Shown here one piece after another: positions 6,236 to 7,831 of a DNA stretch of 12,631 nucleotides. Source of the stretch: Solirubrobacterales bacterium 70-9 (GTDB lineage: Bacteria; Actinomycetota; Thermoleophilia; Solirubrobacterales; 70-9); contig MKSH01000122.1 of the NCBI GenBank assembly GCA_001898095.1, forward strand, positions 34,130 through 46,760. The letters run 5' to 3'. A program made the translations under genes and the position numbers. The notes beneath the pieces are model-generated. The model did no database searches. It worked only from the letters and a program-made list of their open reading frames with translations, and had not been told where the DNA came from. The first letter of the stretch is position 1. Every line of letters begins with the position of its first letter.

Positions 6236-7831
6236 TTATTCGACCGGCCCGGCGGAGCGCAGGCCCGCCGGGATCGCGGCGATCACGTCGGTGGCGATCA
6301 CCGACTCGGCGACGCCGCCCAACCGGCGCGCCGCCTCCTGGCCCGCGCGGGCGTGCGCGTAGACCGCACAGCAGGCGGCGGCGAAGGGCGCGAGGCCGCG
6401 GGCGAGGAGCGCCGCGGTGACCCCGGAGAGGACGTCGCCGCTGCCTGCGGTCGCCAGGCCCGGCGCCGCGACGGCGTTGACGGCGACCCGCTCGCCGTCG
6501 GTGACGATCGTGTCGTCGCCCTTGAGGACCACGATCGCACCGCTCCAGGCGGCGGCCTCCTTGGCGGCGGCGAGGCGGCGGGCGGCGATCTCCTCCGACT
6601 CGCGCTCCAGCAGGCGGCCGAGCTCCCCCGCGTGCGGGGTGAGGACGGTCGCCGCGGTGCGGGCGGCGAGCCGGTCGAGCTGGCCGGCGAAGGCGTTCAG
6701 GCCGTCGGCGTCGATCACCAGCGGCGCCTCGATCCGCGGCGCAACCTCGCGGGCGAGCGCGAGCGAGTCCTCGTCGCGACCCATCCCTGGGCCGAGCACG
6801 CCGGCGGCGGCGCGCTCGAAGGCAGCGAAGAGGTCATCGACGGCATCGGTCCCGAGCCGCCCCGGCGTGGCGCCGATCCCGCGCGACATCACCTCGACCT
6901 CGGCGGCTTCGAAGATCGGCTCGAGATCGGCCGGGACGGCGACCGTCGCGTACCCGGCGCCGGCGCGGATCGCCGCGGTCGAGGACATCCGCACCGCTCC
7001 GGTGAGCCCGCGCGAGCCGCCCGCGATCGTCACCTGGCCGGAGGAGAACTTGGTCGATTGGGCGCCGCGCTTCGGCGGCAGGTCGAGGACCGCGGGCCCG
7101 ATCACCCCGGCCGCCTCGGGTGCCGGGGCCCCCGCCGGGATCCCGATCGGGGCGACCACCAGCTCGCCGGTGGCCCACTTGCCGGGGGCGACGTAGTGGC
7201 CGACCTTGGCGCCGTGGAAGGTGACGGTGACGTCGGCCTCGACCACCGCCCCGGCGACCTCGCCGGTCGCCGCGTCGACCCCGGAGGCGACGTCGCAGGC
7301 GACCACCGGCACTCCTTCGGCCCGCCGCGCCCCGATCGCCCCGATTGCCCCCGCGGCGGGCTCCCGCGGCGCCCCCGCGAACCCGGTCCCGAAGATCGCG
7401 TCGACCACCGCCCCCGACCCGGCCAACCGCGCCCCGACATCGCCCCCCGCCGATGCGTTCGCAGAAATGGCCGGATAGCGGCCGGAAGTGCGAACGCCAT
7501 CCCCGGCGCCGGCGCCGGGGCCGTTCAGGCGCTCGAGGTTGGCGGTGGCATCGGGGCTCAGCTCATCGGCGGGCCAGAGGAGCAGGACCTCGGCCTCGAA
7601 GCCCATCTCGCGCAGCAGGCGCGCGGCGACCAGGCCGTCGCCGCCGTTGTTGCCCTTGCCGCAGACGACCCGCACGGGGCCCGCCGGCGAAAGCCGCGCC
7701 ACCGCCTCGGCGACCGCCCGCCCGGCGGCCTCCATCAGGCCAAGCGAGGAGATGCCCTGGCCCTCGATCGCCCAGGAGTCCGCGGCCCGCATCCCCTCGG
7801 CGTCGTAGAGACCTCGCAGCCATGACTCCAT
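6236..7831 (-). CDS. nnr: Bifunctional NAD(P)H-hydrate epimerase / ADP-dependent NAD(P)H-hydrate dehydratase
   Basis: The 531-residue protein fuses NnrE and NnrD, which together repair hydrated (damaged) NADH and NADPH: the epimerase interconverts the R and S hydrates, and the dehydratase restores the S form using ADP. The NnrE half (1 to about 225) shows LMEAAGRAVAEAV, VVCGKGNNGGDGLVAARLL, DAIFGTGFAG and CDVASGVDAATGEV. The NnrD half (about 245-525) shows TKFSSGQVTIAGGSRGLTGA, LGPGMGRD, VIDADGLNAF, LTPHAGELGRLL and the nucleotide-binding ATAGSGDVLSG. All key motifs are present. An oddity is that residues 112-126 are encoded exactly by a 45-bp palindromic repeat also found at 1568-1612; the segment lies between the ATANLERL helix and the VVDAIFGTG strand, a likely surface loop. 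The ATG at 7831 is 20 bp after the lipoprotein stop. Confidence 0.95.
   Translation of the reverse strand: MESWLRGLYDAEGMRAADSWAIEGQGISSLGLMEAAGRAVAEAVARLSPAGPVRVVCGKGNNGGDGLVAARLLREMGFEAEVLLLWPADELSPDATANLERLNGPGAGAGDGVRTSGRYPAISANASAGGDVGARLAGSGAVVDAIFGTGFAGAPREPAAGAIGAIGARRAEGVPVVACDVASGVDAATGEVAGAVVEADVTVTFHGAKVGHYVAPGKWATGELVVAPIGIPAGAPAPEAAGVIGPAVLDLPPKRGAQSTKFSSGQVTIAGGSRGLTGAVRMSSTAAIRAGAGYATVAVPADLEPIFEAAEVEVMSRGIGATPGRLGTDAVDDLFAAFERAAAGVLGPGMGRDEDSLALAREVAPRIEAPLVIDADGLNAFAGQLDRLAARTAATVLTPHAGELGRLLERESEEIAARRLAAAKEAAAWSGAIVVLKGDDTIVTDGERVAVNAVAAPGLATAGSGDVLSGVTAALLARGLAPFAAACCAVYAHARAGQEAARRLGGVAESVIATDVIAAIPAGLRSAGPVE
7454..7498. repeat. Dispersed palindromic element, copy 2 (inside nnr coding sequence)
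   Basis: TGCGTTCGCA (7454-7463) and TGCGAACGCC (7489-7498) form outer arms with one mismatch. An inner perfect palindrome GGCCG (7469-7473)/CGGCC (7479-7483) sits inside. It differs from copy 1 at four of the first 44 bases. In the nnr frame it is exactly 15 codons, giving GVRTSGRYPAISANA (residues 112-126), with no stop and no frameshift. The two copies have opposite relations to genes: one is intergenic and one is translated. Confidence 0.85.

Follow-up and report, generated by a model that had tools for sequence, protein, structure and literature searches.

A 45-bp palindrome in frame in the NnrE enzyme of a Solirubrobacterales bacterium as a copy of a probably mobile, lineage-specific element family

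The stretch of DNA analyzed here (the window, 12,631 nucleotides) comes from a draft genome of a Solirubrobacterales bacterium (G000; 4.2 Mb in 278 contigs, 84% complete, 5.7% contamination). On its minus strand, positions 6236–7831 hold an intact reading frame of 531 codons that, based on the frame and its YjeF_N and Carb_kinase domain matches, is assigned as an nnrE-nnrD fusion for a bifunctional NAD(P)H-hydrate epimerase/dehydratase. Within this gene, the sequence, its folding and genome-wide matches delimit a 45-bp palindromic element at 7454–7498. The element is composed of a left arm (TGCGTTCGCA, plus strand 7454–7463, consensus TGMGTTCGCA), a hairpin-forming 25-bp core that by sequence and pairing belongs to the CCGNATAGCGG subfamily of the species (7464–7488), and a right arm (TGCGAACGCC, plus strand 7489–7498, consensus TGCGAACKCA) whose last base is its one mismatch; both arms are defined by the sequence and the flank profile of 106 copies. 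Read on the minus strand (GGC GTT CGC ... GCG AAC GCA), the palindrome encodes GVRTSGRYPAISANA, in agreement with the original prediction that it covers codons 112–126 without breaking the frame. Each strand of this copy folds better than all 200 of its shuffles (z −4.5 and −3.9). A second copy, placed by sequence and gene prediction at 1568–1612, is intergenic, flanked by two divergent predicted genes whose 5′ ends are about 116 and 28 bp from it. It shares 35 of 39 core-unit bases with the NnrE copy and its folding likewise beats all 200 shuffles; its minus strand reads CVRTSGRYAVIAANA, which matches the NnrE peptide at 11 of 15 residues as had been claimed. No Rfam family reached its gathering score in the window. 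A third copy lies nearby, outside the window (L179:15507–15545), where it falls in frame close to the C-terminal end of a permease of the ABC-3 family. The window also contains a separate inverted repeat at the 3′ end of the predicted gene 1640–2839 (2814–2840 and 2943–2969; 27 nt, 89% complementary, 102 nt apart).

The palindrome is dispersed through the genome at high copy number. The pattern GTTCGCA-N17..47-TGCGAAC has 157 exact matches in G000 and its reversed control has none. The length of the unit is fixed: although spans of 31–61 bp were allowed, the core unit is 39 bp in all 108 G000 copies read, in 46 of 47 matches in the sister species (G009) and in 49 of 50 in G007. In the 212 half sites, conservation extends beyond the search pattern (T at −3 in 170, G at −2 in 211, and C or A at −1 in 155 and 57), so the unit is taken to be 45 bp, TGMGTTCGCA-25-TGCGAACKCA, with nearly invariant 10-bp arms and a 25-bp core that pairs with itself. 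Pairing in the inner stem of unlike representatives is 0.68–0.70 Watson–Crick, compared with 0.44 when the partners are dealt out at random. Past the arms, C prevails in the left flank and G in the right, with no consistent copy-by-copy covariation that would indicate an outer stem. Identical 39-mers occur at two to four places. With A at the M position, the arm supplies a TGA stop codon; in 13 copies this TGA is the stop of a predicted gene that runs exactly to the core. A copy has, on average, 3.7 stop-free frames out of six; the palindrome is thus not limited to the single such frame first ascribed to it.

Among sister species, presence of the element is patchy. The relatives compared are labeled as Solirubrobacterales and Actinomycetota metagenome-assembled genomes. 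Within the genus, core matches number 157 in G000, 133 in G007, 119 in G009, 64 in G003, 24 in G006 and two in G001; there are none in G002, G004, G005, G008 and G010, and the one in G011 equals its control. Controls of the core pattern gave zero or one match per genome, and G019, from another genus, has four. The 45-mer with at most one mismatch is present in seven of 50 genomes of the family, G000 included, and a narrower pattern had no match in 24 genomes drawn from the order's other families. In a viral contig collection, the exact 45-mer pattern was on no contig. The IspE gene of G008, a species without intact copies, contains a 39-bp relic with altered arms (L236). Such a relic would fit the loss of a maintaining activity, or G008 may carry a variant arm.

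Copies strongly avoid genes, since 85% of the fetched stretches is coding and only a minority of copies fall there. The positions of 108 G000 copies were read in 80 stretches (462 kb): 76 lie between genes, 14 lie inside them and 18 touch the end of one. Three further stretches place two of four copies in genes, so that the in-gene count of 16 of 112 copies refers to 83 stretches (478 kb) of the G000 genome. Gene calls were made with a codon model trained on the genes of the window; this model places a copy in a gene only if the frame is open, so frame-breaking insertions would go unseen. Outside genes, copies prefer 3′ ends. Of the 94 non-genic copies, 68 have a 3′ end as their closest gene end (53 within 50 bp) and 26 a 5′ end (12 within 50 bp), and 53 of all 108 lie at most 50 bp behind a stop codon. 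The 16 in-gene copies use frame 0 in nine cases, frame 1 in six and frame 2 in one. Their hosts, as named from Pfam domains, include NnrE, a MurC-like ligase, MurT, IspE and a RibB-flavin reductase fusion (MurC and RibB being domain labels), as well as acyl-CoA dehydrogenases, GNATs, an ABC-3 permease, hydantoinase B and rhodanese. Five of the 16 cases are backed by orthologues and the others by Pfam, with three of the 16 lacking a Pfam match. The expectation that such peptides recur in unrelated proteins of the same genome therefore holds. In G009, six of 46 copies of 39 bp are in genes, four of them in stretches fetched as orthologues, and a seventh in-gene match spans 60 bp. The corresponding counts are 0 of 50 in G007, 2 of 13 in G003 and 0 of 5 in G006; given the zero for G007, coding insertion is no constant habit of the family.

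This placement could also be read as that of regulatory hairpins, namely terminators, mRNA-end stabilizers or nucleoid-protein sites selected behind genes, with the in-frame copies as side effects. The strong 3′-end preference, the 13 stop codons supplied by arms, the covarying hairpin and the arms that are unchanged in in-gene copies shared between species are all consistent with such a role. In contrast, the flanks are G+C-rich and contain no T run, G008 keeps the tested NnrE, MurC-like ligase, MurT and IspE genes with no core match in its genome, and the palindrome is in frame in at least five enzyme genes that have insert-free orthologues. Insertion at 3′ ends is, moreover, also the least harmful. 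Selected regulatory hairpins are consequently a rather unlikely explanation.

In enzymes, the palindrome is tolerated in frame. In NnrE, the affected loop has 39 residues in G000 compared with 21 in G003, 20 in G007 and G008, 19 in G005, and 18 in G002, G010 and G019, all of whose NnrE loops lack the element. The palindrome itself accounts for 15 codons, whereas the net gain over the nearest congeners is 18–19, rather than the exact 15 first proposed. Among the 120 closest homologues, the median loop length is 39 with the element and 20 without, and the structure 2ax3 has 18 fewer residues than G000 NnrE between matched blocks. An alignment of NnrE across relatives, set beforehand as a test, found the residues absent from 27 of 29 and the element version in the remaining two (G009 and G006). 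Together with the other host proteins, these insert-free relatives support the Rickettsia-like reading of an in-frame palindrome. By alignment, the insert appears to sit in a variable loop, and most likely it has no function for the enzyme and would be tolerated cargo.

Insert-free orthologues were found for all five genes tested (NnrE, MurC-like ligase, MurT, IspE and the RibB-flavin reductase fusion), and in the latter four the orthologues without the insert keep their flanks intact. MurT provides the crispest case: the shortest loops have 4 residues without and 17 with the element. For each gene, the 120 proteins are those most like a query that itself has the element. Such a ranking favors element-bearing matches, so the following fractions are not population frequencies. 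The NnrE loop peptide VR[TS]x-x6-xAN is present in 30 of the 120 closest public proteins, two with an altered R or N. The element is in 57 of 111 MurT proteins (a low count, since several with the loop cut at ..NC or ..KC were not scored as positive) and in 70 of 110 IspE proteins; 9 of 120 MurT and 10 of 120 IspE proteins were left out for unmatched loop borders. Trees of these proteins are poorly resolved, with support below 80% for 60 of 117 inner branches in NnrE and for 53 of 108 and 54 of 107 in the MurT and IspE analysis. On a loop-free NnrE tree, the element label requires 26 changes (27.0 after shuffling, with 172 of 500 shuffles needing no more than 26), at least 10 of which are imposed by well-supported branches. 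In MurT and IspE, the label clusters on the tree (27 versus 37.5 changes with at least 6 forced, and 24 versus 32.9 with at least 5 forced; 0 of 500 shuffles as low in either case), so descent accounts for part of the sharing in these two genes. The absence of the NnrE peptide from distant lineages, on which the original prediction had counted, held in part: the peptide is present in NnrE proteins of other species down to 80% identity, but it is scattered over the tree with changed cores, and this pattern favors recurrent insertion or turnover over a long-standing protein feature.

These loops hold further palindromes. Two IspE proteins (P0258 and P0349) have two element peptides in tandem in one loop. 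Unrelated palindromes are in frame in the same loops of IspE in G006 and G007 (L238 and L239) and of the MurC-like ligase in G006 and G003 (L200 and L201). Of 120 other IspE proteins, at least 8 also contain the unrelated IspE palindrome, which encodes an EAFWSQDDQ-like peptide. As dispersed families, these two other loop palindromes were not found in the fetched stretches, where the shorter IspE arm had two loose matches, each of them single. Stretches of G009, G007, G003 and G006 additionally share a recurring hairpin word, GCTGTTCCT. The genus seems to hold several palindrome families.

Between constant arms, the cores turn over. In G000 and G009, 15 pairs of copies lie at similar distances beside or in the same orthologous genes (two G000 copies share one G009 partner; a stricter limit leaves 14 pairs). 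The paired cores are alike at 11.2 of 25 positions versus 11.3 of 25 for shuffled pairs (p 0.66), and each paired G000 core has a nearest neighbor in its own genome that is alike at 19–25 of 25. One pair, L165/L276, is an exception (19 of 25). Five in-gene copies are common to both genomes, four of them found by protein likeness alone and the fifth through the element. In these five, the arms are identical at 70 of 70 positions and the cores at 49 of 125, whereas the four-fold sites of the same genes are identical at 803 of 1147 (0.70). The cores thus change faster than silent sites while the arms remain unchanged.

A composite repeat in G000 offers a second comparison. This intergenic palindrome mosaic of about 620 bp occurs in 13 copies (L122, L126, L133, L140, L151, L158, L160, L166, L168, L169, L189, L192 and L341) and is laid out as a left hairpin, a second 45-bp palindrome with TCCGTTCGCT arms, the element and a right hairpin. 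The loop of the right hairpin is the reverse complement of that of the left, and the outer hairpins could be aligned in 12 of 13 copies. At its fixed place in the composite, the element has one core type in 11 of 13 copies (22–25 of 25 alike). The cores of L133 and L341 are identical to each other (25 of 25) but alike at 5–6 of 25 positions to the other 11, with arms alike at 18–20 of 20. The flanks of these two copies are 0.87 and 0.83 alike, which is within the ranges to the rest (0.80–0.90 and 0.75–0.87), on their upper side.

These data bear on whether the copies are single old insertions inherited by descent, with cores that diverged by point mutation under a pairing constraint and with no exchange or re-insertion. 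Several observations agree with this: sites shared by G000 and G009 keep a similar spacing to the same genes, the NnrE tree joins G000, G009 and G006 with weak support, and the element is clustered on the MurT and IspE trees. However, point mutation is hard to reconcile with cores that outpace four-fold sites between unchanged arms, with orthologous cores that are no closer than shuffled pairs and resemble those of their own genome, or with the foreign core of L133 and L341 among composites of similar flank identity; the number of label changes on the NnrE tree, close to that after shuffling, also speaks against it. Descent without exchange is accordingly quite improbable. Core sequences follow the genome rather than the site. 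In the simplest reading, the cores seem to be replaced as units, either through an exchange inside the arms or through loss of a copy followed by a new insertion at that site. A possible, still tentative view is that the arms are docking sites and the 25-bp core an exchangeable cassette, overwritten by an enzyme or by annealing of a small folded single strand. If so, this would be a homing palindrome of 45 bp with arm-directed core replacement, in which copies, including those in enzymes, follow the current core types of their genome. Such a mode of concerted evolution would have no description for REP, RPE or MITE elements in the portions of the literature compared.

Constant arms might also be expected of DNA-uptake or other recognition sites with the 10-bp arm as the unit, and DNA-uptake-type sites in other bacteria are often paired behind genes. 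In the stretches read, this explanation is refuted and has very little probability left: arms do not occur alone in the 462 kb of G000, the only two solitary 10-mers deriving from copies with one mutated arm, and outside elements GTTCGCA is rarer than expected (9 versus 34.8). Also refuted, and almost devoid of probability, is a real conserved loop of the NnrE family that resembles the repeat by chance or convergence, since the peptide, despite its presence in 30 of the 120 closest NnrE proteins, is missing in most aligned relatives, is unmatched in 2ax3, and has the same DNA arms at 157 places and like peptides in other proteins.

The palindrome in NnrE is best explained, with a probability of roughly 0.8, as one member of a family of small, mobile and lineage-specific palindromes in a Solirubrobacterales genus, tolerated in enzyme loops. 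That the copies are active is inferred from sequence comparisons. They would be non-autonomous and depend for movement or renewal on an enzyme provided in trans, which may recognize the arms and their fixed spacing, probably on a folded single strand. Because its length is divisible by three and its frames are mostly free of stops, a copy landing in a loop would let the host protein keep working and would itself be retained. A search for the Y1 transposase family PF01797 found no match in six draft genomes and matches in 5 of 14 control genomes; this was the one family covered. No mobilizing gene was identified among the five genes scanned of 31 predicted between neighboring copies, all of which are ordinary: an Fpg-type glycosylase, a DNA polymerase III subunit, a GNAT, a member of the endonuclease/phosphatase family and a secreted repeat protein, with no transposase.

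The closest known system is that of the Rickettsia palindromic elements (RPE), also present in Wolbachia, which the excerpts compared describe as likewise palindromic, multi-copy, lineage-specific, and both intergenic and in frame in unrelated genes (PMC3767692, PMC2229807, PMC10969869). The present element shares this defining behavior (16 of 112 copies in genes; five of five tested genes with insert-free orthologues). In R. japonica, the RPE group at or close to a given locus may differ between orthologues, according to the part of that report consulted (PMC3767692). Units of RPE, as given in an excerpt, measure 105–146 bp (PMC2229807), compared with a fixed 45 bp here; their host is an intracellular rickettsia rather than an actinobacterium with a 4-Mb genome, and the sections of the RPE literature compared make no mention of core replacement between constant arms. 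The element works like an RPE but is not classed as one, given its 45-bp length, its other host and a likeness drawn from published descriptions. REP/REPIN-RAYT systems, in the passages compared, are also short palindromes (20–40 bp) in many copies near gene ends (PMC12306157, PMC3733652, PMC3116915), a position shared by the present element (53 of 94 non-genic G000 copies at most 50 bp from a 3′ end). They possess a Y1 transposase, in contrast to the six PF01797-free drafts here, and the element is not classed as REP-RAYT. The consensus neither begins nor ends with the GTAG/CGTC of REPs, and REPs, as one excerpt states, seldom overlap coding regions (PMC12306157), in contrast to the in-gene copies of G000. 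MITEs (Correia, ERIC, RUP and others) are also short and presumably non-autonomous with terminal inverted repeats, comparable to the 10-bp arms. Their target-site duplications have no counterpart here, as direct-repeat matches for k 2–9 are the same as in shuffles, although old copies could have lost a duplication, and no related insertion sequence was seen in the search of the Y1 family. MITE units of about 100–200 bp, the size stated in the text available (PMC2229807), exceed 45 bp. Inverted repeats in protein genes are also described, in the excerpt compared, for Nematomorpha mitochondria, as coding palindromes of up to 284 bp (PMC6649704), whereas the element here is a short dispersed insert that is missing from insert-free orthologues. 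Among the matches listed in literature searches on Actinobacteria, Thermoleophilia, coding palindromes and Solirubrobacter, there was no description of such elements in this lineage.

Palindromes that encode protein have been described chiefly in Rickettsia and Wolbachia, which have small intracellular genomes. A smaller counterpart of RPE in the GC-rich, presumably free-living Solirubrobacterales, with 4-Mb genomes, would make in-frame palindrome insertion a more general route to new loops in enzymes. Many species have these sites filled, empty or occupied by another core, so comparison alone can test the mode of movement, and the shared insertion sites serve as natural replicates of the way enzymes accommodate an insert.
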